DNA from: Acidobacteriaceae bacterium
GTDB taxonomy: Bacteria; Acidobacteriota; Terriglobia; Terriglobales; Acidobacteriaceae
Length of the DNA: 38,679 nt
Assembly (NCBI GenBank): GCA_003131315.1
Contig: PKUV01000170.1
Span: 56,042 to 94,720, forward strand
Direction of reading: 5' to 3'
Shown here piece after piece: positions 1,973-38,679 of the stretch; position 1 is the stretch's first letter, and every line of letters begins with the position of its first letter. The position numbers and the translations under genes are program-made. Under the pieces are notes generated by a model, which searched no databases, was not told the DNA's origin, and saw nothing but the letters and a program-made list of their open reading frames with translations.

Positions 1973-1987
1973 GCCGGGTTGATCTTG

Positions 1988-2070
1988 CGTAGGGACAGCC
2001 GCCCTCGCCGCTTGTAGAGACCGGGCTTGCCCCGTCTCCGGAGACACGCTCCCGGGCGTCCGGCCCCGCC
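1988..2070. repeat. Decayed dispersed repeats after dnaB
   Basis: The stretch begins with CGTAGGGACAGCCGCCCTCG, the left half of the palindrome found intact at 4419-4446, and continues with a degenerate GAGACC...GGGCTTGCCCCGTCTC unit related to 27062-27083. The remaining space to 2436 holds no gene that I recognise. Confidence 0.6.
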
Positions 2071-4410: not shown

Positions 4411-4418
4411 GGAAACTC

Positions 4419-4446
4419 ACGTAGGGACAGCCGCCCTCGGCTGTCC
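4419..4446. repeat. Palindromic repeat family B, intact intergenic copy
   Basis: CACGTAG precedes GGACAGCC (4425-4432), GCCCTC (4433-4438) and GGCTGTCC (4439-4446): a perfect 8-bp stem with a 6-base loop. Related copies lie at 1988, 14905, 21083 (inside nadD), 21551, 27193 (inside the acyltransferase gene) and 27994. This is the reference copy for the family. Confidence 0.85.
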
Positions 4447-4503
4447 AGCGGAGCGCAGCTTGGCCTCGCCTCTAGTACCGTGACCGCGTGTGATGAGTCA
4501 TAC

Positions 4504-11775: not shown

Positions 11776-11847
11776 CCTCAGCCCCTAAAGGGGCATCTGA
11801 TTTCGACGACTTGGCGGTATCGCTGAAGCGATACCCTGATACGAACC
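11776..11847. repeat. Partial copy of the composite repeat family C
   Basis: It contains AGCCCCTAAAGGGGCATCTG and the palindrome TATCGCTGAAGCGATA followed by CCCTGATACGAA. The same modules in the same order occur at 14738-14811 and 15590-15672. This copy lacks the terminal inverted repeats and ends 18 bases before the dnaG stop codon. Confidence 0.8.
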
Positions 11848-11865: not shown

Positions 11866-13851
11866 TCAGGATGCCCGGCTGGCCGCCTCCCCCAGTCCCG
11901 GATCCATCAGGGCCCGCTTGAAGCGAACCTTTTCCTGCAAAAGCGCTTGTCTTTCCTCCAGGGGGAGCCCTGGGCGCTGCAATCCGAGCTGCACTTCCTC
12001 CAGCCGCCGCCGCAGATAAATCCTCCGCAAAGCCCGCACCGCGCCCTCCACGGTCTCGGGTGTCAGAGCTTCCTCCTCGTGCATCAGGATCGAGGCCAAC
12101 AGCCGCCGGTCTTCTTCCGTCTTTGGCAGCGCCATGACATCCGCTGTCTCGGTCCCAGCTCCCAGCAAAGCCTCCAGCAACGACTGCGAAGCCAGCCCCT
12201 CATACAGCTGCTCCGATTGCAGCGCATATTGCGCCTGCCGGGCCGGATCGAATTCCTCATCCGTTCCTTCGCGAGCCGAACTCCGCGCTCCACCGGCCTG
12301 CATCTCGGTAGCCGAAGCCAGCGCCCGGATCAGGACGCGTTCCGCACCGGTGATCTGCGCCTCAGCCGTGGCCTTGACCTGGGTCGCGGAGCGCGTGGTG
12401 GCTGCATGCTTCAATTCCTGGCGCAGCACCGCGGAATCAATTCCCAGCTTCTGCGAAATCTCCAGCGCCAGTTCATCGCGCACGATCCGGCTCGGCACCC
12501 GCTGAATGTGCGGAAGAAGATGGTTAACGGCCTTGACCTTGCTCTCCGAGTTCCGCGCCGGAAACATTGCGCGCGCACGGTCGATCAGATAGTCAAAATA
12601 TTTCTGCGAGTTCTTGAGCGCCGCGCCATAAGCGTCCTTGCCTTTGCGCCGGATGAACAGATCGGGATCGAATCCCGTCTCAAGCGTGAGAACCCTAATG
12701 TTGAATTCTTCTTCGACCAGCAACCCGAGTGTCCGCTCCGTAGCGCGGGCCCCGGCCGTGTCGGGATCGAAATTGACCACCACATTCTTCGAGAATCGCC
12801 CCAGTAATTTCGCCTGCAGCTCGGTGAACGCCGTGCCCGAGCTTGCAATCACATTGTGGAAGCCGGCGGCGTAGACCGAAATGCAATCCATCTGCCCTTC
12901 GACCAGGATGGCATACTCGAGCTTACGAATCGCTTCTTTCGCGTTGTCCAGATTGAACAGCACCCGCGACTTCGAGTAAATCGGAGTCTCCGGAGAATTC
13001 AGATACTTCGGCCCCGCCTTCTCATCGGTAGAAAGCGTGCGTCCCGTGAAGGCAATTACTTTGCCCTGGTCATTACAGATCGGGAACATCACGCGATTGC
13101 GGAATTTGGAGTAGATGGCGGCGGGCTGCGAGCTGCGAGCTACGAGCTGTGGGCTCTCGCTGTTCGCTATTCGCTGTTCGTCGTTCGCGGCGGAGATCTC
13201 TACTGCATTGTCATCCTGAGCGGAGCGAAGGACCTGCTTTCCCTCCGAGCTGCGAGCTGACGGCTGCGAGCTTTCCTTCCACGAAAATAGCCCACTCTCC
13301 CGCAGCAGTTCCTCGTCGAACTCACGGCGTAGCGCGTCGCGGAGCAGGAAGCCGGAGTCGGGAGCGTAGCCGATGCGAAAGCGGGCGATCATCTCGTCAT
13401 CGAGTCCGCGCCCCTTGAGATATTCGCGGGCATTCGCGCCTTCGGGACGCCGCAGACAGTCCTGGAAAAACGCGGTAGCGCGCACATGCACGTCCAGCAG
13501 TGCCATGCGAACCTGAGCGTCGCGAGCCTCCGCCGGGCTGGAGAAGCTGACCTTGGGCATCGGCACGCCGAGCTTCTGAGCAACCAGCCGGACGGCTTCC
13601 GGGAAGGTGATGTTCTCGACCTTCTGGATGAATGTAAAGACATCCCCCGACTCTCCACAGCCAAAGCAGTGATAAAACTGCCGCGTGGCATGCACCGAAA
13701 ACGAAGGCGTCTTCTCGGCATGAAACGGACAAAGCCCCGAAAAGTTCTGCGCCCCAGCCTTCTTCAGCTTGACGTAGTCGCCGACGATGCGGACGATGTC
13801 CGCCTGCTGCTTGAGGGTCTCTTTGAAGTTGTCGGAGGAGGTCGAAGTCAT
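11866..13851 (-). CDS. dnaG: DNA primase DnaG with a repeat-derived insert
   Basis: Makes the RNA primers for replication and partners DnaB. The product has 661 residues. The zinc-binding domain carries C41, H44, C62 and C65 (CPFHAEK, CFGCGESGD). The catalytic part resumes at YSKFRNRVMFPICNDQGKV (from about 247). The Toprim motif LVEGQMD is at 316-322, and the second acidic motif is in VVVNFDPDTAGARAT. The C-terminal third is the helicase-interacting region. Residues about 193-245 (SSQPSARSSEGKQVL to VARSSQPAAI) are absent from ordinary DnaG and are encoded by dispersed repeats (13117-13281) placed exactly in the interdomain linker. ATG 13851 has no strong ribosome site; CATAAT at 13878-13883 may be its -10. 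Confidence 0.96.
   Translation of the reverse strand: MTSTSSDNFKETLKQQADIVRIVGDYVKLKKAGAQNFSGLCPFHAEKTPSFSVHATRQFYHCFGCGESGDVFTFIQKVENITFPEAVRLVAQKLGVPMPKVSFSSPAEARDAQVRMALLDVHVRATAFFQDCLRRPEGANAREYLKGRGLDDEMIARFRIGYAPDSGFLLRDALRREFDEELLRESGLFSWKESSQPSARSSEGKQVLRSAQDDNAVEISAANDEQRIANSESPQLVARSSQPAAIYSKFRNRVMFPICNDQGKVIAFTGRTLSTDEKAGPKYLNSPETPIYSKSRVLFNLDNAKEAIRKLEYAILVEGQMDCISVYAAGFHNVIASSGTAFTELQAKLLGRFSKNVVVNFDPDTAGARATERTLGLLVEEEFNIRVLTLETGFDPDLFIRRKGKDAYGAALKNSQKYFDYLIDRARAMFPARNSESKVKAVNHLLPHIQRVPSRIVRDELALEISQKLGIDSAVLRQELKHAATTRSATQVKATAEAQITGAERVLIRALASATEMQAGGARSSAREGTDEEFDPARQAQYALQSEQLYEGLASQSLLEALLGAGTETADVMALPKTEEDRRLLASILMHEEEALTPETVEGAVRALRRIYLRRRLEEVQLGLQRPGLPLEERQALLQEKVRFKRALMDPGLGEAASRAS
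13117..13281. repeat. Composite repeat block inside dnaG
   Basis: Three repeat types are stacked. GAGCTGCGAGCT-like units occur at 13126-13156 and again at 13245-13276. A TTCGCTATTCGCTGTTCGTC-type unit lies at 13162-13190, related to 25481-25504. Between them is TGTCATCCTGAGCGGAGCGA (13209-13228), a dispersed repeat known from many GC-rich bacteria. The block is about 165 bases, keeps the frame and contains no stop in the dnaG frame. Confidence 0.8.
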
Positions 13852-14534: not shown

Positions 14535-14833
14535 AACAGGCTGCGGAAAAAGTCGATCTTCGATGCCCAGCCCCTAAAGAGTGTTCGTGAGAACTGGGTC
14601 GTCCCTCCGGGACTTGAATCATTTCTTCCACTTTTCCCCAGCGCTGAAGCGCTGGGCTAAGCTGGTTCGCCCCTGCCGGGGCTGAATTCCGGATTCGCTC
14701 TACCACCAGCCGGTCCGCGAGGCCGGTTCTCACGCACGCTCCTAAAGGGACATCTGATTTCGAAGAACTTACGGCATCGCTAAAGCTAAAGCGATACCCT
14801 GATACGAAACCCGAGTTTCCCCGCAGCCTGCGA
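14535..14833. repeat. Long copy of repeat family C, with an internal insertion
   Basis: It begins AACAGGCTGCGGAA and ends in CCGCAGCCTGCGAA, imperfect terminal inverted repeats. It has the same internal modules as 15558-15696 (AAGTCGAT, CAGCCCCTAAAG, GGGACATCTGATTT, AAAGCGATACCCTGATACGA). A different repeat is inserted within it: 14640-14690 carries AGCGCTGAAGCGCT, then GGGCTAAGCTGGTTCGCCCC, which reappears inverted at the right edge of the window (38648-38679). Confidence 0.75.
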
Positions 14834-14904
14834 AGTCGTGCCCTTCCCAAAAACATGCGTGAATCAGAATTCTTTCAGCAGCCGGTGGCGGGCTTCGCGC
14901 GCCT

Positions 14905-14931
14905 GGACAGCCGAAGGCGGCTGTCCCTACG
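14905..14931. repeat. Repeat family B, inverted intergenic copy before ruvA
   Basis: GGACAGCC (14905-14912), GAAGGC, GGCTGTCC (14919-14926), then CTACG. Same orientation as the copies inside nadD and the acyltransferase gene, but here upstream of the ruvA start. Confidence 0.85.
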
Positions 14932-14941
14932 TGGACTGCCG

Positions 14942-18154: not shown

Positions 18155-18263
18155 AGCGGCTAAAGCCGCTTGTGTGACGGGTTCTAACGGCGCGGCTGAA
18201 GCCGCGCCCTTTCAAAACAAAGTCAAAATCAGAGTTTTTCAGCAGCCTGCCGCGGACAGGAGT
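18155..18263. repeat. Hairpin repeats downstream of the hybrid kinase gene
   Basis: AGCGGC-TAAA-GCCGCT (18155-18170) and GGCGCGGC-TGAA-GCCGCGCC (18189-18208) are perfect stems with four-base loops. They are followed by TTTTTCAGCAGCCTG and GCGGACAGGAGTGTCCGC (18252-18269), the last related to the arms of 36085-36190. On the minus strand these could help end the kinase transcript. Confidence 0.7.
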
Positions 18264-18278
18264 GTCCGCGCTACACTC

Positions 18279-20821: not shown

Positions 20822-21550
20822 ATGAATATCGGCTTTTTCGGCGGCAGCTTCGACCCCATCCATCGCGGACACCTGGCACTGGCCCAGGCGGCCGCCAGCC
20901 GCTACGCTCTGCGGCAGGTGCTGTTTGTGCCGGCGAATGTTCCTCCGCACAAACAGAAACAGCCGCTCACCGCGTTCATCCATCGTTATGCCATGGTGGC
21001 GCTCGCAACGCAGGACGAACGGGGATTCGTGCCGTCGCTGCTGGAGGAGCCAGAATTTACGGCTGCGAAAGTTCGCTCCGCCGGACAGCCGGGGGCGGCT
21101 GTCCCTACGTCCGGTGGCGTGAATTATTCGATCGATACGGTTCGACGCCTGAAACAAACCCTCAAAAAGTCGGACCGCCTTTTTTTTCTGATCGGAATTG
21201 ACGCCTTCCGCGACTTCGCAAAATGGCGCGAGGCGCGCGCGCTTCTGGCGGAATGCGATTTCATCGTGGCCAGCCGTCCGGGATATTCGTTGCGGGACGT
21301 GGCCGAGTCGTTGCCGGAAGATTTGCGGACTCCGGCGGCGGTGACTCGTCCGTTTCGTAAGCAACCAGCAAAAGGGGACCTCGTTCTTCCCGGGGTCACG
21401 CTGCACTTGCTTGAGGGAGTTCACCAGACCGTCTCCGCGACCGCGATTCGGGCGGCGGCAGCGCAGGGCAAGCCGCTGGCACGATGGCTGGATCCGCGGG
21501 TGGCAGATTATGTACGGAAGCACGGACTGTACCGTGGGAAGCACACGTAG
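20822..21550 (+). CDS. nadD: Nicotinate-nucleotide adenylyltransferase NadD with a repeat-encoded insert
   Basis: Converts nicotinate mononucleotide plus ATP to deamido-NAD. 242 residues. The nucleotide-binding site GFFGGSFDPIHRGHLALA covers residues 4-21; GIDAFRDFAKW (125-135) and SATAIRAA (205-212, the SxTxxR motif) complete the family signature. Between EFTAAK and NYSIDTVRRL the protein carries about 15 extra residues (RSAGQPGAAVPTSGG, 85-99) encoded by a family B palindrome. The TAG stop is supplied by a second copy of the same repeat. ATG 20822 has AGGGA about 9 bases upstream. It is followed by rsfS, a common pairing. Confidence 0.94.
   Translation: MNIGFFGGSFDPIHRGHLALAQAAASRYALRQVLFVPANVPPHKQKQPLTAFIHRYAMVALATQDERGFVPSLLEEPEFTAAKVRSAGQPGAAVPTSGGVNYSIDTVRRLKQTLKKSDRLFFLIGIDAFRDFAKWREARALLAECDFIVASRPGYSLRDVAESLPEDLRTPAAVTRPFRKQPAKGDLVLPGVTLHLLEGVHQTVSATAIRAAAAQGKPLARWLDPRVADYVRKHGLYRGKHT
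21081..21114. repeat. Repeat family B copy inside nadD
   Basis: GGACAGCC (21083-21090), GGGGGC, GGCTGTCC (21097-21104), then CTACGT, a perfect 8-bp stem. In the nadD frame it reads AGQPGAAVPT. CCGG flanks it on both sides. Confidence 0.88.
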
Positions 21551-21572
21551 GGACGGACGCCCTCGTCCGTCC
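21543..21572. repeat. Repeat family B copy carrying the nadD stop codon
   Basis: CACGTAG, then GGACGGAC (21551-21558), GCCCTC, GTCCGTCC (21565-21572). The loop GCCCTC and the left flank are as in 4419-4446, while both arms differ in matching ways so that the 8-bp stem is kept. TAG at 21548-21550 ends nadD. Confidence 0.85.
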
Positions 21573-21626
21573 AACCGAGCGAAGCTCGGCAGCGCCTGCG
21601 GGGCGGGTTACAATCAATGAGCCCGT

Positions 21627-22085
21627 ATGAAGAAAAAGGACGACCTCAAACTGCAAGTGAGTGAAGCCATCCTCGCCTGCCAAGACAAACAAGCCGACGA
21701 TGTCACGATTCTCGAACTGGAAAAAGATTCGGGAGCGTTCACCGACTACTTTGTGATGTGCAGCGGGACCAATCCTCGGCAAATCCAGGCGATTGCCGAC
21801 GCGGTGGACGAGCGGCTGGAGGCACTGGGCCTCCGCGTGACGCACTCCGAGGGCTATAAACAGGCGGAGTGGGTGCTGCTCGATTACGTGGACTTCGTCG
21901 TCCATGTTTTCTCCGAGAAAGCGCGCCAGTTCTACGACCTGGAACGCCTGTGGAAGTCGGCCAAGCGGCTGGAGCCGGCGGAATTGCTGGCGAAGCCGAA
22001 GCCGCGGCGGACTGCGGTCGTCAAACCCACAACTGGCAAAATCGCGTCCGCGACGCCCAAGAAAACGCGAAAAAAGAAGGCCTGA
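21627..22085 (+). CDS. rsfS: Ribosomal silencing factor RsfS (Iojap/YbeB family)
   Basis: Binds ribosomal protein L14 and blocks subunit joining when nutrients are low. 152 residues. The core (about 10-115) carries the signatures ILELEKDSGAFTDYFVMCSG, QIQAIADAV, SEGYKQAEWVLLDYVDFVVH and HVFSEKARQFYDLERLW. A basic tail, KPRRTAVVKPTTGKIASATP and then KKTRKKKA, extends beyond the usual domain and may contact rRNA. TACAAT (21609-21614) lies 12 bases before ATG 21627, so any leader would be a few bases long and no Shine-Dalgarno site is seen. The next gene starts 1 base after its stop. Confidence 0.94.
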   Translation: MKKKDDLKLQVSEAILACQDKQADDVTILELEKDSGAFTDYFVMCSGTNPRQIQAIADAVDERLEALGLRVTHSEGYKQAEWVLLDYVDFVVHVFSEKARQFYDLERLWKSAKRLEPAELLAKPKPRRTAVVKPTTGKIASATPKKTRKKKA

Positions 22086-22086
22086 A

Positions 22087-22920
22087 ATGTCCGCTTCGAA
22101 TCCAGCCCTGTGGGGTTCCTCTTTCCGTCTGGTGGCCGCAGAAAAGTGGAAGGCAAAATCGGCGGCGCTGGGCAACGCGGTCACACAAGCTATTGTTGAA
22201 TACTCGCGTCCGTTGCCTGACATGCGCGTTCTCGATCTGGCCAGCGGCACCGGCGAACCTGGGATCAGTCTGGCGCAGCGCGTTGGTCCCCAGGGTTCGG
22301 TCACGGCGGTGGATCAGAGTTCGGAACTGCTCGACATTGCCGCCGAGCGAGCCCGGAACAAGAAACTCCTAAACTTCACGACCCAGCAGGCCGACGCGCA
22401 CCAGCTGCCGTTTGCCGACCAGCGCTTCGATCTCGCCACCTGCCGCTTTGGGGTGATGTTTTTCAGCGATGCCCATCGAGCCCTGGCGGAACTGCGCCGC
22501 GTGTTGAAGCCCGGAGCTCGCGCCTGCTTTGCCGCTTGGGGTTCGATGGAACAACCTTATTGGCAAACCACGATGAAGATGGTGCACCAGCATGTGGGTG
22601 GAACCATGCTTCAACCTGGAGGATCGGACCCTTTTCGATTCTCGGCCGCGGGTTCTCTCTCAGACGCGCTCAGCGCTTCGGGATTTCACGATGTAGAGGA
22701 GTCGACTCGCAATCTGCCCTGGACTTGGCCGGGAGACGCGGAAGAAGTTTTCGATTACGCGTGCGCAGTGGCAGCTCCGTTCCGTCCGATGCTGGAACGG
22801 GTTGGGGCGGAACAGTGGCCGGCGATCCGCGCTGAGGCGAAGGCGGCGATCGAGCGGTATCGCGTGGGAGATGAGATCCGGTTCGGCGCCGACGTGGTTC
22901 TGGCGTCGGGAAAAGCCTGA
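22087..22920 (+). CDS. Class I SAM-dependent methyltransferase, substrate unknown
   Basis: A 277-residue Rossmann-fold methyltransferase. The SAM-binding motif I is VLDLASGTGEPGISLAQRV, the acidic motif II is SVTAVDQSSELLDIA, QADAHQLPFADQRFDLATCR follows, and FGVMFFSDAHRALAELRRVL resembles UbiE/Methyltransf_11 proteins. ATG 22087 begins 1 base after the rsfS stop, and rlmH follows 14 bases after it, so the three are probably one operon. Placement between rsfS and rlmH might suggest an RNA or ribosome substrate, but the domain type is more typical of small-molecule methylation, so the substrate is open. Confidence 0.88.
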   Translation: MSASNPALWGSSFRLVAAEKWKAKSAALGNAVTQAIVEYSRPLPDMRVLDLASGTGEPGISLAQRVGPQGSVTAVDQSSELLDIAAERARNKKLLNFTTQQADAHQLPFADQRFDLATCRFGVMFFSDAHRALAELRRVLKPGARACFAAWGSMEQPYWQTTMKMVHQHVGGTMLQPGGSDPFRFSAAGSLSDALSASGFHDVEESTRNLPWTWPGDAEEVFDYACAVAAPFRPMLERVGAEQWPAIRAEAKAAIERYRVGDEIRFGADVVLASGKA

Positions 22921-22934
22921 GTGGCGGACGCGCT

Positions 22935-23381
22935 GTGAAAATCAAAGTGGCATGGATCGGGAAGACGAAAGAGCCGGCGATCGAGGCTCTGACCGATGAG
23001 TATTTGAAACGGCTCTCGCGCTATGCCGACGTTGCGGGCCTGGCATTGAAGGACGAAGCCGCAATTTTGTCGCTGGCGAGCGGCGAGCGGCAGAAGAACA
23101 AAGAGCGGCACAAGCTGGTTCTTCTCGATTCGCGGGGGAAACAGTTTTCATCGGAAGAGCTGGCCGAGTTTTTGGAGCGCGAGCAGGTACACGCGATACC
23201 GCTGCTGTTCGCGATTGGTGGCAGCGACGGCTTCAGTGAAGAAGCGCGGCGCCACGCGGGGTTTACGCTGTCCCTGGGAAAGATGACGCTGCCCCACGAG
23301 CTGGCGCGCGTGGTTCTGGTCGAGCAGCTTTACCGTGCTTTCACCATTCTGAAGAACCATCCCTATCATTTGGGACATTAA
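22935..23381 (+). CDS. rlmH: 23S rRNA (pseudouridine-1915-N3)-methyltransferase RlmH
   Basis: A SPOUT-family methyltransferase acting on helix 69 of 23S rRNA. 148 residues, slightly shorter than usual. Motifs: N-terminal KIKVAWIGKTKEPAIEALTD and EYLKRLSRY; LVLLDSRGKQFSSEELAEFL; the SAM-binding knot FAIGGSDGFSEEARRHAG; FTLSLGKMTLPHELARVVLV; and EQLYRAFTILKNHPYHLGH at the end, where most homologues stop at YH(R/K). The start is GTG 22935. The rsfS-rlmH link is widespread in bacteria and both gene products act on the large subunit. Confidence 0.95.
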   Translation: MKIKVAWIGKTKEPAIEALTDEYLKRLSRYADVAGLALKDEAAILSLASGERQKNKERHKLVLLDSRGKQFSSEELAEFLEREQVHAIPLLFAIGGSDGFSEEARRHAGFTLSLGKMTLPHELARVVLVEQLYRAFTILKNHPYHLGH

Positions 23382-23541
23382 CTTTATGGTAACGGGGCAG
23401 GGGCCAGTCAGCCCCATTCTCGTGAGACTCAATCCCCAGCCTCGATGGACCTCTGGCAGCTTCACAGGGGCGCGAAACTGGCTTACTGTATTTGTTAACA
23501 GGCGAAACAAGTCTGAATTTGTTGGCGAGGCCCTCCCCCAT

Positions 23542-23709
23542 ATGAAAAATCCGTACGACGTACTACGAATGAAAGAGCAGGAACTGATGCGGGTCCGCAA
23601 AGAGATGGACGCTCTGAGGATCGCAGCGCGCTTGCTGGGCGCCGAGGATCCGGGCGCAGCGAACGGCGAAGGTCAGCCGAAGCTGCAACGAGTCGTCGAA
23701 ATGCCGTAG
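23542..23709 (+). CDS. Conserved-looking 55-residue helical protein
   Basis: Starts at ATG 23542 with MKNPYDVLRMKEQELMRVRK; residues about 6-35 form a heptad-like amphipathic helix (coiled coil likely), and the tail GAEDPGAANGEGQPKLQRVV is loose. GGCGAGG upstream is a weak ribosome site. A strong intrinsic terminator follows 25 bases after the stop, which supports a real transcript. No function is recognised. It comes 160 bases after rlmH, so it may be a separate unit. The frame extends to 23386, but that part lacks any support. Confidence 0.6.
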   Translation: MKNPYDVLRMKEQELMRVRKEMDALRIAARLLGAEDPGAANGEGQPKLQRVVEMP

Positions 23710-23734
23710 AAGACATACTTCCCCGTTTGACGCG

Positions 23735-23772
23735 AGGCGGACGGAAACCAAAACCGTCCGCCTTCTTCTTTG
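23735..23772 (+). terminator. Intrinsic terminator after the 55-residue gene
   Basis: AGGCGGACGG (23735-23744) and CCGTCCGCCT (23754-23763) form a perfect 10-bp stem with a 9-base A-rich loop, followed by TCTTCTTTG. Confidence 0.85.
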
Positions 23773-23829
23773 TGGAAGAAGGTTCTGCGGCGGATCTTCC
23801 TCAAAGTCTAAGTATCTTTGCATCGCGGA

Positions 23830-23922
23830 TGAATTGGTAATTTGTGATTTGTAATTGGTAATTGAAAACCGAGCGACTCCCCGGAATCAAGATTACAAAT
23901 TACAAATTGCCAATTACAAATT
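23830..23922. repeat. AT-rich inverted repeat upstream of cobO (family D)
   Basis: TGAATTGGTAATTTGTGATT begins a 34-base unit (23830-23863). The right half (23892-23922) is its approximate inverse, built of ATTACAAATT steps, so the whole can fold back on itself. The 34-base unit recurs identically at 24504-24537. The surroundings are GC-rich, so these stand out sharply. Confidence 0.85.
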
Positions 23923-23969
23923 CCTCAGCACGCTCATTCCTGTCCGCGTACAATTACAGATTCGGCCTT

Positions 23970-24506
23970 ATGTCGGATCTTCGCCGTGGTCTCATCATCG
24001 TGAATACTGGTCCGGGCAAGGGGAAGACTACTGCGGCCATGGGGACGGCGCTGCGGGCTGTTGGGCAGGGGATGCGCGTCCTGATGCTGCAATTTCTGAA
24101 GGGCTCGTGGCATTACGGCGAACTCGACGCGGTCAAAGCTTTCGGCGACAAGTTCATCCTGAAGCAGATGGGACGCGGCTTCGTGAAAGTCGGCGCCGAG
24201 AAGCCCGACCCTGAAGATGTGCGGATGGTGGAGGAGGCCTGGGCCGAGGCCGAGAAAGCGATCCAGTCCGGCGAATGGGACCTGGTGGTGCTCGACGAAA
24301 TCAATTACGCCATCAGCTACGGTATGCTGGACCCGGCGAAAGTGGTGGAGTCTCTGGCGCGGAAGCCGGAGATGGTGCACGTCATCTTGACCGGAAGGAA
24401 CGCGCATCCGACAATTGTCGAGCTTGCCGATACCGTGACTGAAATGCGCCAGGTAAAGCATGCCTACGAGAAAGGCGTGATGGCGCAGAGAGGAATTGAG
24501 TACTGA
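23970..24506 (+). CDS. cobO: Cob(I)yrinic acid a,c-diamide adenosyltransferase
   Basis: Attaches the 5'-deoxyadenosyl ligand in adenosylcobalamin synthesis or salvage (CobA/CobO/BtuR type). 178 residues. The P-loop GPGKGKTTAAMGTALRAVGQ is near the N-terminus; VLMLQFLKGSWHYGELDAVK, the acidic motif DLVVLDEINYAISYG, ILTGRNAHPTIVELADTVTE and the C-terminal MRQVKHAYEKGVMAQRGIEY all match the family. ATG 23970 begins MSDLRRGLIIVNTG; the frame runs upstream through a repeat (ITNYKLPITN) that is unlikely to be translated. TACAAT lies 15 bases before the start. No other cobalamin gene is nearby, and identical repeats bracket the gene. Confidence 0.93.
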   Translation: MSDLRRGLIIVNTGPGKGKTTAAMGTALRAVGQGMRVLMLQFLKGSWHYGELDAVKAFGDKFILKQMGRGFVKVGAEKPDPEDVRMVEEAWAEAEKAIQSGEWDLVVLDEINYAISYGMLDPAKVVESLARKPEMVHVILTGRNAHPTIVELADTVTEMRQVKHAYEKGVMAQRGIEY

Positions 24507-24607
24507 ATTGGTAATTTGTGATTTGTAATTGGTAATTTTGATCCCTTCGGTTTGGGTGTGTGGTTTAGGTTTTCAATTACCAATTACCAATTACCAAATT
24601 ACAAATT
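24504..24607. repeat. AT-rich inverted repeat between cobO and accD (family D)
   Basis: The left unit (24504-24537) is identical over 34 bases to 23830-23863 and begins with the cobO stop codon TGA. The right part (24575-24607), with AATTACCAATTACC steps, is its approximate inverse and ends 4 bases before the accD ATG. The accD leader is therefore mostly repeat. Confidence 0.85.
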
Positions 24608-24611
24608 TCCC

Positions 24612-25460
24612 ATGACTTGGTTCAAGCGACAATCCGGTGCGTTGGACACTTCGGGCGAGAAGAAAGTACGCACCGAGGGCCTGTGGGTGAAGTGTGACAA
24701 CTGCCGCCAGATTATCTGGAAGAAGGACCTCGAATACAATCTCAACGTCTGCCCGAAGTGCGACAAACACTTTCGCATCGACGCCCGCACTCGCCTGGCG
24801 CAGCTTCTCGACGACAATCGATACGACGTTTTCGACAGCAATCTCGTCTCCACCGACCCGCTGAAGTTTGTGGACCTGAAAGCCTACTCCTCGCGCCTGA
24901 AGCACGCGAAGGCCGACACCGGCCTGAAAGACGCCATCATCAATGCCCAGGGCAAACTGAGCGGCCGCCCGGTGATCGTGAGCGCGATGGAATATTCCTT
25001 TATCGGCGGGAGCATGGGAGCGGTGGTTGGCGAGGTCATTACGCGAGCGATTGAGAAGGCGATGGAAACGCGGACGCCGATCATCATCGTTTCGGCATCG
25101 GGCGGCGCACGCATGATGGAAGGCGTGATCAGCCTGATGCAGCTGGCGAAGATCTCCGCCGCGCTGGCGCGTTTAGACGCGGCGCGGGTCCCCTACATTT
25201 CGGTTTTAACCGATCCCACCACGGGCGGCGTGACCGCATCGTTTGCCATGTTGGGCGATCTCAACATCGCCGAACCCGGTGCCCTGATTGGCTTCGCGGG
25301 ACCGCGAGTAATTGAGCAGACGATCCGGCAGAAGCTGCCGCCAGGGTTCCAGCGCTCCGAGTTTCTCCTGGAACACGGAATGCTCGATGCCGTGGTCGCG
25401 CGCAAGGAGTTGAAGGGGTACATTGCGCGGGCGCTGGAATTCATGGTGCAGGCGGCGTAA
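24612..25460 (+). CDS. accD: Acetyl-CoA carboxylase carboxyltransferase subunit beta
   Basis: Transfers the carboxyl group from biotin to acetyl-CoA with AccA in the first step of fatty acid synthesis. 282 residues. The zinc ribbon has C28, C31, C47 and C50 (CDNC, CPKC). The crotonase-like core shows SAMEYSFIGGSMGAVVGEVI, IIIVSASGGARMMEGVISLM and LTDPTTGGVTASFAMLGDLN. ATG 24612 gives MTWFKRQSG; an in-frame extension to 24552 is repeat sequence (SITNYQLPNYKF). No Shine-Dalgarno site is present because the AT-rich repeat abuts the start. The accD-folC order is widespread in bacteria. Confidence 0.96.
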   Translation: MTWFKRQSGALDTSGEKKVRTEGLWVKCDNCRQIIWKKDLEYNLNVCPKCDKHFRIDARTRLAQLLDDNRYDVFDSNLVSTDPLKFVDLKAYSSRLKHAKADTGLKDAIINAQGKLSGRPVIVSAMEYSFIGGSMGAVVGEVITRAIEKAMETRTPIIIVSASGGARMMEGVISLMQLAKISAALARLDAARVPYISVLTDPTTGGVTASFAMLGDLNIAEPGALIGFAGPRVIEQTIRQKLPPGFQRSEFLLEHGMLDAVVARKELKGYIARALEFMVQAA

Positions 25461-25480
25461 AGGCAGTCGCGAGCACAAAA

Positions 25481-25657
25481 CGCTGTTCGTCGTTCGCTAT
25501 TCGCCGTTCGCGAAAACCCATCCTTTCCCTCATTGGAGCGCGTGGGGAGCCCTTTGATGTCGATCCGCCGCCGTCCGCTGAGAGAGAGTCGAAACCGGCG
25601 GCCGGACTTGCTACCCTGAATGTGCCCGCCGTCGCGAATAGCGAACGACGAACAGCG
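25481..25657. repeat. Element with perfect 24-bp inverted ends between accD and folC
   Basis: The arm at 25481-25504 (CGCTGTTCGTCGTTCGCTAT and four more bases) is exactly complementary to 25634-25657. The 129 bases between them include the upstream candidate folC start codon, and the right arm is translated if that start is used. Related TTCGCTATTCG units lie inside dnaG. Confidence 0.85.
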
Positions 25658-27050
25658 AACCGCGCCCTTGTCCTACGAAACCGCAGTCGCGCAGATGTAC
25701 GCGTTGGGCCACGAGTTGGCGCAGACGCCGTCTTACAAGTTCGACCTGGCGCACATTCGCGTGCTGCTGGCGGCACTGGGACATCCGGAAAATCGTTTCC
25801 CAACTGTGCTGGTCGCGGGCACCAACGGCAAGGGTTCGACGGCCGCCACTCTGGCATCCATCCTGCAGGCTTCGGGGCTGAAGACGGGGCTCTATACTTC
25901 GCCGCATCTGGTTCGCATTAATGAGCGGATTCGCCTCAATGGCAAACCCATCGGCGACGACGATTTCGCGATGCTCCATGACGTGGTCGACCGGACTGCC
26001 GAGCGGCTGGTGGGAGAAGGCGATCTGCCGTGGCATCCCAGCTTCTTTGAGACGCTGACCGCGATGAGCTTTGAGTATTTCGCCCGCAGCCGGCCCGACA
26101 TGGTTGTGCTTGAGGTCGGCATGGGCGGGCGTCTGGATGCGACCAACGTGGTTGAGCCGCGGCTCAGCATCATCACCGACATCTCGCTCGATCATCAGAA
26201 GTATCTGGGCGAAACTGTCGGCGAGATTGCGCGCGAAAAAGCGGGGATCATCCGACCGGGCGGGATTGTGGTTACGCTGCCGCAATTGCCCGAAGCCAAC
26301 GACGTGATCGGAAACACAATTTTGGATGTGGGCGCGCGGGCGGTGAATGCGGTGCCGTATGTGCCGCCCATCAGTGGTCAGTGGTCAGTGGCCAGTGGTC
26401 AGTGGCAACGTTATCCGCTTGAAGTGATGGGCACGCGAATCCTGGTTGAGTCGCCGCTGGTGGGGCGCCATCAGCTGCGTAATCTGGCGCTGGCGATCGC
26501 GGCGGCGGCGGAACTTCGCAACCAGGGAACGGTTCAGATCACGCCGGAGACGATCGCACAAGGTATCCGCGAAACGCATTGGCCAGGGCGCTTTCAGGTA
26601 GTGCCGGCCACGGGAGACAATCCCGAGTATGTGTTCGATGTCGCGCATAATCCGGCTGGAGCCTGGGCGCTGCGGTCGACGCTTTCGGCCGCTTACCAGA
26701 ATCCGAGAAGCGGCGACGCGGGAAACGGCCGGGAAATCACGATGGTGTTTGGCGTGATGCGGGACAAGGCGGTGGCGGAAATTACTGAGATTCTGTTCCC
26801 GATCGCCGGGCACGTGATCGTGACTCACGCCAACAACCCACGCTCGGCGAGTCCGGATGAGATTCGGCAGGCCGCGGCGCGTGTGGCGGCGGGCATTGAT
26901 ATTGAAGAAGCCGAGGATGTAGCGTCGGCCTTGGACCGAGCGCGCAAGGTTGCCGGACCAAAGCCTGCCGGACCCAGCGGCCTAGTCGTCGCTACCGGTT
27001 CGATTTACATTGTGGGAGAGGCGATGCGAATGCTCGGCGTCCGCATCTAA
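25620..27050 (+). CDS. folC: Bifunctional folylpolyglutamate / dihydrofolate synthase
   Basis: Adds glutamates to folates (and to dihydropteroate). Mur-ligase fold of 476 residues from ATG 25620, or 460 from TTG 25668. P-loop GTNGKGSTAATLASIL (67-82), YTSPHLVRINERIRLNGKPI, VVLEVGMGGRLDATNVVEPR, SIITDISLDHQKYLGETVGE and VFDVAHNPAGAWAL match the family. LSYETAVAQMYALGHEL is where homologues normally start, so TTG 25668 is a serious alternative: the 16 residues before it come from the repeat at 25481-25657. Residues about 251-262 (SGQWSVASGQWQ) are encoded by five heptanucleotide repeats (26372-26406) in a loop where extra residues are tolerated. Confidence 0.94.
   Translation: MCPPSRIANDEQRTAPLSYETAVAQMYALGHELAQTPSYKFDLAHIRVLLAALGHPENRFPTVLVAGTNGKGSTAATLASILQASGLKTGLYTSPHLVRINERIRLNGKPIGDDDFAMLHDVVDRTAERLVGEGDLPWHPSFFETLTAMSFEYFARSRPDMVVLEVGMGGRLDATNVVEPRLSIITDISLDHQKYLGETVGEIAREKAGIIRPGGIVVTLPQLPEANDVIGNTILDVGARAVNAVPYVPPISGQWSVASGQWQRYPLEVMGTRILVESPLVGRHQLRNLALAIAAAAELRNQGTVQITPETIAQGIRETHWPGRFQVVPATGDNPEYVFDVAHNPAGAWALRSTLSAAYQNPRSGDAGNGREITMVFGVMRDKAVAEITEILFPIAGHVIVTHANNPRSASPDEIRQAAARVAAGIDIEEAEDVASALDRARKVAGPKPAGPSGLVVATGSIYIVGEAMRMLGVRI
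26372..26406. repeat. Heptanucleotide tandem repeat inside folC
   Basis: Five consecutive CAGTGG(T/C) units, 35 bases in all. Because 7 is not a multiple of 3, loss or gain of a single unit would shift the folC frame. Confidence 0.9.
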
Positions 27051-27061
27051 GATCGTGTGTA

Positions 27062-27083
27062 GAGACGGGGCTTGCCCCGTCTC
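27062..27083. repeat. 10-bp inverted repeat after folC
   Basis: GAGACGGGGC (27062-27071) and GCCCCGTCTC (27074-27083) with a two-base centre, 11 bases past the folC stop. It is a dispersed repeat type with a degenerate relative near 2014-2037. It may also stabilise the folC transcript end. Confidence 0.75.
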
Positions 27084-27132
27084 ACTTCGCTCAGGCCAGG
27101 CTCTGCCCGCGAGAAAGTTTAGACAAGGAAAC

Positions 27133-27993
27133 TTGAACAAGATCGCCACAACTGCGGAGCCGGAAAAAGAGCGAGCCGAGCTGCGTCCCGCCGGAGAGCC
27201 GGAGGCGGCTGTCCCCACGTGGTCCGAGCGGCCGGCTGCTCATCCCGTCAAGCGGCATGGCTGGCTCAGCCGCCTGCGCTCGTATTTCATTCTCGATCCG
27301 CTGATCTGGGCCTACACCCTGATTTTAGGCACGCTCTCGCTGACCTGCTCGCTCTTCGACCGCAACGGGCGCATCCAGCACAATTTCGCCCGCCTCTGGT
27401 CGTGGCTCGTCATGAAGACGATCCTGTCGCCGGTGAAAGTCACGGGCATGGATAAGGATAAGATCGACACATCCAAGCCCCGAGTGTATGCGGTCACTCA
27501 TGCGTCGGCGCTCGACATTCCGATTCTCTACGTCTATTTGCCATTTCAATTCCGCATCATTTTCAAGAGCGAATTGCTCGCGTATCCATTCGTCGGCTGG
27601 CATCTGACACGCTCGGGGCAAGTCTGCATCAACCAGCAGAACCCTGCGGCCTCAATCGGCGCCATCAAGTCAGCGCTGAGGAGCCTGCGAAGTGGCATGC
27701 CGCTGGTAATCTTTCCCGAGGGCGGCCGCAGGCGAGATGGAAAGATTCAACCTCTCCTGCCGGGCGCATTCTTTCTGGCGATCAAGGCACAGGCCGATAT
27801 CGTGCCGATCGCGCTCGTCGACACGTTCGACCTGCTGCCGATGAACACCTACCACATCAAGTGCCAGCCGCTGGAGATGCGTGTAGGCGAACCGATCTCC
27901 ACGGCCGGGTTGACCGTGCGCGATACGGACGAGGTGTCGGCCAAGGTGAAGTCTGCAATCGAAGCTCTGCATTCGGCACAAAGAACCACGTAG
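27133..27993 (+). CDS. 1-acyl-sn-glycerol-3-phosphate acyltransferase-like protein (PlsC family)
   Basis: Membrane-associated acyltransferase, probably making phosphatidic acid or another acylated lipid. 286 residues from TTG 27133, which has AAGGA a few bases upstream; the frame extends to 27010 through a repeat, so the exact start is uncertain. One membrane helix lies around YFILDPLIWAYTLILGTLSL. The HX4D catalytic motif is H123-x4-D128 (VTHASALDIP), and the substrate motif is VIFPEGGRRRDGKIQPLLPG with E196. PEKERAELRPAGEPEAAVPT near the N-terminus includes a family B repeat in frame. The TAG stop comes from another copy. Confidence 0.9.
   Translation: MNKIATTAEPEKERAELRPAGEPEAAVPTWSERPAAHPVKRHGWLSRLRSYFILDPLIWAYTLILGTLSLTCSLFDRNGRIQHNFARLWSWLVMKTILSPVKVTGMDKDKIDTSKPRVYAVTHASALDIPILYVYLPFQFRIIFKSELLAYPFVGWHLTRSGQVCINQQNPAASIGAIKSALRSLRSGMPLVIFPEGGRRRDGKIQPLLPGAFFLAIKAQADIVPIALVDTFDLLPMNTYHIKCQPLEMRVGEPISTAGLTVRDTDEVSAKVKSAIEALHSAQRTT
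27193..27220. repeat. Repeat family B copy inside the PlsC-like gene
   Basis: GGAGAGCC (27193-27200), GGAGGC, GGCTGTCC (27207-27214), then CCACGT. One arm mismatch relative to the perfect copies. It reads AGEPEAAVPT in frame, nearly the peptide found in NadD (AGQPGAAVPT). Confidence 0.82.
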
Positions 27994-28019
27994 GGACAGC
28001 CGCCCGCCCTCGGCTGTCC
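27987..28019. repeat. Repeat family B copy carrying the PlsC-like stop codon
   Basis: CACGTAG, then GGACAGCC (27994-28001), a 10-base loop GCCCGCCCTC and GGCTGTCC (28012-28019). The loop is the usual one with four extra bases. TAG at 27991-27993 ends the acyltransferase gene. Confidence 0.85.
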
Positions 28020-28043
28020 GGGCGGGAATTCCGGCCAGCGTCG

Positions 28044-36084: not shown

Positions 36085-36190
36085 GTGTGGGGCGGACACT
36101 CCTGTCCGCGAAAGGTCGGCGTTGAGCCGATGGCCTGCGCCATCCGCCGAAGAGGTTCCAAAGCGGCGGACAAGAGTGTCCGCCCCACAC
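36085..36190. repeat. 106-bp element with 25-bp inverted ends between the VOC gene and ruvB
   Basis: The arm at 36085-36109 (GTGTGGGGCGGACACTCCTG and five more) is inverted at 36166-36190 with one mismatch. Related arms appear near 18252-18269 and 38286-38306. It starts 3 bases after the VOC stop codon and ends 38 bases before the ruvB start. Confidence 0.85.
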
Positions 36191-38647: not shown

Positions 38648-38679
38648 CCAGCCCCGGAGGGGCGAACCAGCTTAGCCCA
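38648..38679. repeat. Edge copy of a repeat also inserted at 14650-14680
   Basis: Read on the minus strand it is TGGGCTAAGCTGGTTCGCCC followed by CTCCGGGGCTGG, matching GGGCTAAGCTGGTTCGCCCC with TGCCGGGGCTG inside the repeat at 14535-14833. It is cut by the window edge. Confidence 0.8.

Follow-up and report, generated by a model that had tools for sequence, protein, structure and literature searches.

Introduction

Repetitive extragenic palindromic sequences (REPs) of the GTAG type, their presence inside genes and the donation of a TAG stop codon by their tag are already known from Di Nocera et al. 2013 (PMC3733652). The accessible portions of that paper also describe different REPs at about the same recB site in two Xanthomonas species, name for the Acidobacteria only the TIR-type transposases of Koribacter versatilis, and count the Rickettsia palindromic elements RPE-4 and RPE-6 of Rickettsia conorii as CGTC-type, a type said to be without a dedicated transposase. 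Excerpts of Nunvar et al. 2013 (PMC3686654), which deals with Pseudomonas and Stenotrophomonas, propose that new REP variants might partially replace the original ones. The present study concerns a REP in a 38,679-nt stretch of contig PKUV01000170.1 from an Acidobacteriaceae bacterium (assembly GCA_003131315.1), the whole of which is hereafter referred to as the window, and where copies of the repeat lie in frame inside nadD and inside a plsC-like acyltransferase gene.

From the sequences compared, the repeat is very probably a non-autonomous GTAG-type REP that was dispersed in the genus, mostly 3' of stop codons, with the copies inside genes being survivors of insertion. It would probably be moved by a REP-associated tyrosine transposase (RAYT), an IS200-like tyrosine transposase. 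Only in-frame, stop-free and chemically bland inserts in tolerant loops would persist, so that near-identical peptides would come to stand in unrelated proteins. Less surely, resident copies would have been replaced by other REP variants or joined to them in tandem, and the same loops thus rewritten species by species. Among the titles and beginnings of abstracts listed in a literature search, which for some queries were a small share of the matching papers and included few subscription journals, there was nothing on the present REP family, on in-frame REPs in Acidobacteriota or on the repeated rewriting of one protein loop. The apparent recurrent rewriting of one site would be new, whereas intragenic REPs and TAG donation are known.

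Methods

The REP was searched with a covariance model (R1), which scored 150 of the 5009 first-look candidates in the genome containing the window, and the 138 copies counted there are thus a lower bound. A wider survey of 91 genomes used stricter filters and E<=0.001. Genes were called with a small home-made Markov gene finder trained on the fetched surroundings of all 138 copies. A pooled set of 267 copies combines these 138 with 129 from relatives, the latter picked mostly for high score. Eighty stretches were fetched, 4 from the window genome and 76 from relatives (mostly the highest-scoring places; four for nadD, plsC or RAYT), a choice that favours recent GGACAGCC copies. The dusB, MFS and methyltransferase genes were chosen because same-site cases had already been seen in them, and they are not a random sample of genes. 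For the frame test, one row per host site and orientation was retained (29 of the 40 in-gene rows); it omits orthologous repeats (dusB, methyltransferase, MetG, MutS), three secondary or partial matches, the C37 gene, whose start is doubtful, and L294, whose contig contains N. The in-gene count also excludes two rows that the gene finder had split, ahead of a TatD-like gene. Genomes, contigs and loci are cited by G, C and L numbers.

Results and discussion

Architecture and distribution of the repeat

The initial annotation had reported the same palindrome in nadD and in the plsC-like gene, on the same strand and in the same frame, encoding AGQPGAAVPT and AGEPEAAVPT, and this was confirmed. 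The extents it gave (21081-21114 and 27193-27220) do hold palindromes and are too short, each being part of one 49-nt element with a second hairpin that had not been described. The unit occupies 21063-21111 in nadD (R1 60.3 bits) and 27173-27221 in the N-terminal part of the plsC-like gene (R1 39.1 bits), on the minus strand and in reverse to the gene at both places. Three bases and the GTAG tag precede a 9-bp stem closed by a four-base loop; a spacer of one or two bases then leads to the second hairpin, which is 7 bp long. The tag varies as GTAG, GTGG or GGAG, the loop of hairpin 1 is CCCT in most of 20 aligned copies, and the stem sequence differs among copies. The hairpin in nadD (GGACAGCC-GGGGGC-GGCTGTCC, 21083-21104) is followed by CTACGT; that in the plsC-like gene (27193-27214) has one arm mismatch. 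Since the unit sits on the minus strand, both proteins read the complement of the REP, and their peptides agree because orientation and register are identical.

Pairing holds in 92.5% of cells across the 20 aligned copies (helix 1 99.4%, helix 2 83.6%) and in 82.1% after shuffling; the covariation score is 0.342 against 0.147, and double-change cells in both hairpins number 35 against 10.6.

At least 138 copies were identified in the window genome (6.0 Mb, 194 contigs) at E<=0.01 and at least 143 at E<=0.1. Exact palindromes number 25 genome-wide and a reversed-pattern control gave none, while the 16-mer GGCGGCTGTCCCTACG (<=3 mismatches) occurs 7 times in the window against 0.51 expected, a count reached in 0 of 100 shuffles. 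R1 matches at E<=0.01 are present in all 24 genomes of the genus, with from 2 to at least 150 per genome; the earlier suggestion of a mobile palindrome holds as far as a dispersed, mobile-looking repeat can bear it out. The wider survey gave matches in 40 of the 91 genomes, including 24/24 of the genus and 15/31 others of the family; among the 36 genomes outside the family, it found none in 14 others of the order and one weak case in 22 others of the class.

By sequence, the palindrome is a GTAG-type REP as defined in print. A 5' tetranucleotide GT(A/G)G (GGAG in some copies) precedes the palindrome, the copies are dispersed and numerous, they are mostly extragenic and near the 3' ends of genes (see below), and a RAYT flanked by the same REP occurs in G003 and G017, though at none of the 11 transposase matches of the window genome. 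The copies in nadD and plsC are each a single tagged hairpin with an untagged second hairpin and not, as in a REPIN, two inverted REPs forming one unit; inverted REP pairs do occur at other places.

Position relative to genes

Copies of the REP are depleted in genes: 23 of the 138 lie inside one open frame, against 69% of 6000 intervals drawn at random from this DNA, a four-fold depletion, and the other 115 lie outside called genes. A stop codon is overlapped, or lies at most 150 nt upstream, in 84 copies where about 14 were expected (the random intervals do so in about 10% of cases); of the 84, 61 are oriented as the gene and 23 opposite to it. At 0-15 nt 3' of a stop there are 30 of the 138 in gene orientation (0.6 expected) and nine in the opposite one (0.8 expected). 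Moreover, in 18 of the 267 pooled copies a gene ends exactly on the TAG of the REP tag, and both nadD and the plsC-like gene of the window are among them. A plus-strand unit at 21544-21592 with stem GGACGGAC (R1 71.7 bits, and evident from the sequence) provides the TAG of nadD at 21548-21550, and another at 27987-28037 (plus strand, R1 44.5 bits) provides that of the plsC-like gene at 27991-27993.

Host genes and reading frame of the in-gene copies

Pfam domains were found in 26 of 28 scanned host proteins, mostly of housekeeping families, with no Pfam match in hosts L108 and L167. Hosts in the window genome are a GHMP kinase (IspE-like), Sua5, a sigma-54 activator, MnmE, DusB, UvrD (two copies), NadD, B12-dependent methionine synthase, an Rce1-like protease, a GAF/TonB protein, a solute-binding protein, a MutS2-like protein, a CofH/MqnC radical-SAM enzyme, an MFS transporter, a methyltransferase (PF02636), class II ribonucleotide reductase, methionyl-tRNA synthetase, the PlsC-like acyltransferase and MutS. 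Relatives add SelA, an FtsX-type permease, MnmG, a lipoyl ligase/transferase, a PUA/methyltransferase protein (RlmI-like) and YidC. At locus L138 (contig C192 of the window genome) one UvrD helicase gene carries two in-frame REPs in opposite orientations.

The initial annotation had further held that, of the possible frames and orientations, both copies use the stop-free one that yields a small and soluble peptide. All 40 in-gene rows are stop-free, which is not evidence because an open frame was part of recognising them, and genes hold the REP in both orientations. A preference of register, on the other hand, does stand: hairpin 2 comes out as A-E-R-S-S-A or variants in 14 of 19 forward copies (p 0.0004 against one third) and as A-E-L-R-S-A or variants in 8 of 10 reverse copies (p 0.003 against one third), where each p is to be multiplied by three as the register had been noticed before it was tested. 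Without collapsing, the figures are 18/27 forward and 8/13 reverse rows. The favoured register persists in five units of 50 nt despite a one-base shift of their hairpin 1. Judged by eye, this register gives small, neutral peptides, and the other registers are richer in Arg or contain Cys, Trp or Tyr. We infer that the bias arose by filtering after insertion, the alternative being a bias of insertion itself.

The same register bias (22 of 29 sites), with the near-identical peptides in unrelated proteins, is what would be expected of an element adapted to coding, one favoured for its translatability that spreads by donating loops to proteins; the initial annotation had suggested that the palindrome may be selected for translatability. 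Genome-wide, the frame preference and the mostly housekeeping hosts agree with its expectations, but with only 23 of 138 copies in genes selection for translatability is not supported. The depletion in genes and the concentration 3' of stops run counter to such an element, as do the TAG held by one forward frame of every GTAG copy and the use of both orientations in genes; five of the six consensus frames are in any case open by eye. We consider an element of this kind quite improbable, and the in-gene copies are better read as survivors of insertion.

The NadD loop

The nadD gene (20822-21550, plus strand; PF01467, E 1.1e-20; TIGR00482 above cut-off) encodes nicotinate-nucleotide adenylyltransferase, and its REP with stem GGACAGCC is read as AAKVRSAGQPGAAVPTS (residues about 81-97), adding about 16 residues to a loop. 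The earlier claim that the insert is an extra between otherwise contiguous residues is upheld by the nearest relatives, which are cleanly without it and show the empty sites APEVTAHGGVNYSIDT (G020), APEWAGGANYSIDT (G014) and AAGAEAKPGGANYSIDT (G003). Over 21 congeners, the loop holds a REP in 10 (six forward, four reverse, several stems), is short in five (G003, G020, G014, G001, G010) and has a longer linker, with no R1 match, in six (G005, G015, G021, G007, G002, G022). R1 itself matched 9 of 20 loops, the weakest two at E 0.009 and 0.014, with the REP reverse in G000, G017, G019 and G013 and forward in G018, G009, G008, G016 and G012, and with differing stems. The tenth, that of G004, was read from a contig end and has two forward hairpins in tandem, where its sister G009 (99/96 support) has one. 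The state of the loop changed at least seven times among 22 genomes, on a poorly resolved tree (starred inner branches are 4/22 and 7/19 in the two trees).

Three further public contigs have a forward REP in nadD; the loop is identical in L391 and L393, and L392 has another 24-nt in-frame insert inside the hairpin. A search with NadD led to 31 public loci, whose titles name, in nearly all cases, Acidobacteria, Terriglobia, Acidobacteriaceae, Acidobacteriales, Terriglobales, Candidatus Solibacter or Candidatus Sulfotelmatobacter. L391 and L392 (JADGRQ010000070.1 and JADGRQ010000071.1) come from a public genome labelled Burkholderiales, with NadD 87-88% identical, perhaps through contamination or mislabelling.

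The best of five AlphaFold models of NadD (28 sequences; mean predicted local distance difference test (pLDDT) score 84.6) has a single segment of at least three residues under pLDDT 50, residues 80-98, and the insert thus falls in the single loop that the model leaves disordered.

The PlsC-like protein

The plsC-like gene (27133-27993, plus strand; PF01553, E 3.3e-23) has a TTG start, and TTG, GTG or ATG stands at that codon in 18 of 21 aligned orthologues. R1 recognises an N-terminal REP at the same place in nine of the 21, reverse in G000, G020, G014, G010, G001, G021, G017 and G023 and forward in G003; no match was found at the site in the other 12, several of which look decayed by eye. 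The stem is GGACAGCC in six (the window genome and five congeners), mutated in some; G017 has GGGCAGGT, and G003 and G023 have GGGCGGAC or a close variant. The hairpin of G014 carries a 45-nt insert. Since G017 groups with G014 (88/88) in the DNA tree, itself a weak one, a change of stem in place is the shortest account at this site.

Comparison with relatives thus bears out a clean absence of the insert for NadD and none for PlsC, where several palindrome-free orthologues have a stretch about as long that to the eye resembles a degenerate copy. Such segments, and the simplicity of the peptides, are what one would see if the in-gene palindromes were ordinary conserved protein segments, alike by chance or shared codon bias. 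That account is hardly credible, as identical palindromes are scattered outside genes and nadD congeners either lack the segment or carry the repeat in opposite orientation; for nadD and dusB it is refuted by the empty sites.

DusB and other shared sites

Among 19 genomes matched for dusB, the loop could be read in 18 (G005 is without anchor). R1 matches (E<0.05) are present in 11: G000, G020, G014, G016, G003, G012, G010, G004, G017, G006 and G008; G018 has a partial match (E 0.12), and no match was found in the loops of G001, G002, G015 and G022. Another palindrome, GGGCACGACTTTAGTCGTGCC, occupies the loops of G009 and G023 and accompanies the REP in that of G008. Read as GHDFSRA in these loops (L333 of G009, L336 of G023, L339 of G008), GGGCACGACTTTAGTCGTGCC has a similar peptide in the membrane protein L108 of the window genome. 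In most REP-bearing loops hairpin 2 and the downstream flank are alike and hairpin 1 differs (GGGCGGAC, GGACGGGC, GGACGGCC, GGACAGCC), and in G004 and G006 a pair of unlike hairpins 1, arranged in tandem, precedes one hairpin 2. The MFS gene, like nadD, contains the REP in both orientations, in different species.

As the stem is still paired, by eye, in many in-gene copies, they might have been kept because an mRNA hairpin or the added peptide is useful to the host. The several congeners with no insert or with a decayed copy at nadD and dusB, and the modelled disorder of the NadD insert, make such a use unlikely, and the copies are more simply taken as tolerated survivors.

Tandem pairs and the possible rewriting of sites

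The fetched stretches contain 333 tagged hairpins. Nine pairs with a gap of at most 15 nt have the same orientation and one pair has its tags inside; in four more pairs the tags face outward across a gap of 0 or -1, and each of these is probably one unit that was read on both strands. The surplus of same-orientation pairs is gone at gaps of 16-60 nt (8 same, 10 tags outside). In the nine tandem pairs, two from the window genome and seven from relatives, the two hairpins have different stems. The one on the 5' side bears a GTGG tag in eight pairs, and the one on the 3' side a GTAG tag with stem GGACAGCC (eight) or GGACGGCC (one), a proportion to be read with the choice of stretches in mind. Their junctions range from 2 to 14 nt, and separate events are therefore favoured. 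The pairs suggest, at the level of sequence, that new REPs land just 3' of resident REPs.

An extension of this reading, which we put forward only tentatively, is that resident REPs are landing pads, where a newly active variant may insert just 3' in the same orientation or replace the resident, so that tolerated loops of unrelated proteins would be rewritten together. The best case is G017, whose nadD, plsC, methyltransferase and RlmI-like genes share the stem GGGCAGGT, as do one more place and both outer sides of a RAYT, whereas plsC of the window genome and of five congeners has GGACAGCC at that site. GGGCAGGT accounts for 6 of 20 sampled G017 copies (three from the single stretch L243), plus nadD. 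It is not private to G017, which weakens the case, being found, among all the loci gathered, once each in five other genomes: G018 (in nadD), G005, G000 (C106), G004 (near plsC) and G011 (forward, in the methyltransferase gene as well).

Different stems at one site could also be independent insertions at a hotspot, with no replacement of a resident copy. The occurrence of both orientations across species in nadD and the MFS gene is unlike simple replacement in place, and at least seven changes of state at nadD on the tree described would fit repeated insertion. The dusB loops, where in most genomes a differing hairpin 1 stands before a like hairpin 2 and flank and where G004 and G006 have hairpin 1 in tandem, and the nine close same-orientation pairs point the other way. 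We regard independent insertion as a real possibility, short of probable, beside the rewriting of resident copies.

The candidate transposase

The RAYTs of G003 and G017 (164 and 167 residues) lie between inverted REP copies on both sides, their stop codon being the TAG of a REP, and both pass the cut-off of NCBIfam NF047646 (REP-associated tyrosine transposase). That of G003 was spotted by PF01797 and R1 matches 150 nt apart, and that of G017 by its nearness to plsC; the latter has outer stems GGGCAGGT and inner stems GCCCAGAC, either of which may be cognate. PF01797 matches number 11 in the window genome and 113 in the genus. A REP search around 39 RAYT loci (the 11 own and the best 28 of the 113 genus matches) gave two weak matches, at E 0.0003 and 0.13. 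A different GTAG palindrome flanks L056, the window genome's nearest RAYT at 44-49% identity. The cognate RAYT may have been lost from that genome or missed by the assembly. A gene on C37 lying between four REPs was considered as transposase and rejected by its sequence; by eye it is a metallo-hydrolase.

Some observations weigh against the explanation favoured here. No R1 match was found around the 11 PF01797 matches of the window genome, and no clean empty plsC site among the 21 aligned orthologues. One of five covariation measures, further pair types, is not above shuffles (17 against 16.0; 185 of 500 reach 17), and the differences in stems could come from compensatory mutation or independent insertion. 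To these are added the caution attached to the register p values, the dependence of gene calls on the home-made finder, and the nature of the genomes, which are drafts, with the named relatives metagenome-assembled.

Other repeats in the window

Two further REP units lie outside any called gene, at 4418-4466 (plus strand; R1 match, C42:60459-60507) and 14885-14933 (minus strand; R1 match, C42:70926-70974). At 1985-2038 (plus strand) an incomplete REP hairpin merges into a second GTAG palindrome (TGTAGAGAC...), whose family (TGTAGAGAC.GGGCTTGCCCCGTCTC) is found at 2013-2038, directly adjoining the incomplete REP, and at 27058-27083. A third GTAG-type family with core CGGACACTCCTGTCCG occurs at 18246-18276, 36085-36115 and 36166-36190, and a palindrome sharing this core flanks the RAYT of L056.

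An Acido-Lenti-1 RNA (RF01687) was identified at 14637-14683 (plus strand; 45.5 bits against a gathering score of 37), and part of it is repeated inverted at the window end (38652-38679). An AT-rich ATTGGTAATT-type repeat, an exact 34-nt duplicate at 23830-23863 and 24504-24537, flanks the open reading frame (ORF) 23862-24506, with inverted copies nearby. A perfect 24-bp inverted repeat (CGCTGTTCGTCGTTCGCTATTCGC; 25481-25504 and 25634-25657) lies around the 5' end of ORF 25620-27050, with a related copy at 13165-13188. A 26-nt repeat (CCCCTAAAGGGGCATCTGATTT and variants) has three copies, at 11778, 14735 and 15591, the first two extending to 49 nt.

Comparison with known systems

The empty sites, the tandem pairs and the candidate transposase together record, across a genus, how a hairpin that looks mobile has placed peptides in housekeeping enzymes. 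Should this hold, two questions could be put to the test: which sites RAYTs use for REP insertion, and how frequently, beyond Rickettsia, mobile palindromes contribute tolerated segments to proteins.

The acidobacterial REP resembles those in the available text of PMC3733652 in its GTAG tag and hairpin, its high copy number, its position mostly 3' of genes with the tag often serving as the TAG stop, and its copies inside genes (there in several species and including DNA-repair genes). It differs from them, to the extent of that text, in its second hairpin and in that several genes of one genus carry different stems in the same loop, two of them in both orientations. The place just 3' of the stop recalls the E. 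coli REPs within 15 nt of stop codons in the part of PMC12306157 available, a likeness of location alone. The parallel with Rickettsia palindromic elements drawn by the initial annotation is apt for the in-frame entry of palindromes into unrelated genes of an unrelated lineage, a likeness of behaviour and not of descent; compared with RPE-4 and RPE-6, CGTC-type in the portions of PMC3733652 at hand, the present REP is GTAG-type, mostly outside genes and accompanied by a RAYT in two relatives. As in the REP orthoswitch described in excerpts of PMC3686654, the stem variants next to related RAYTs differ from one related genome to another; in the model given there the old copies remain and decay, whereas here different stems occupy the same coding site.

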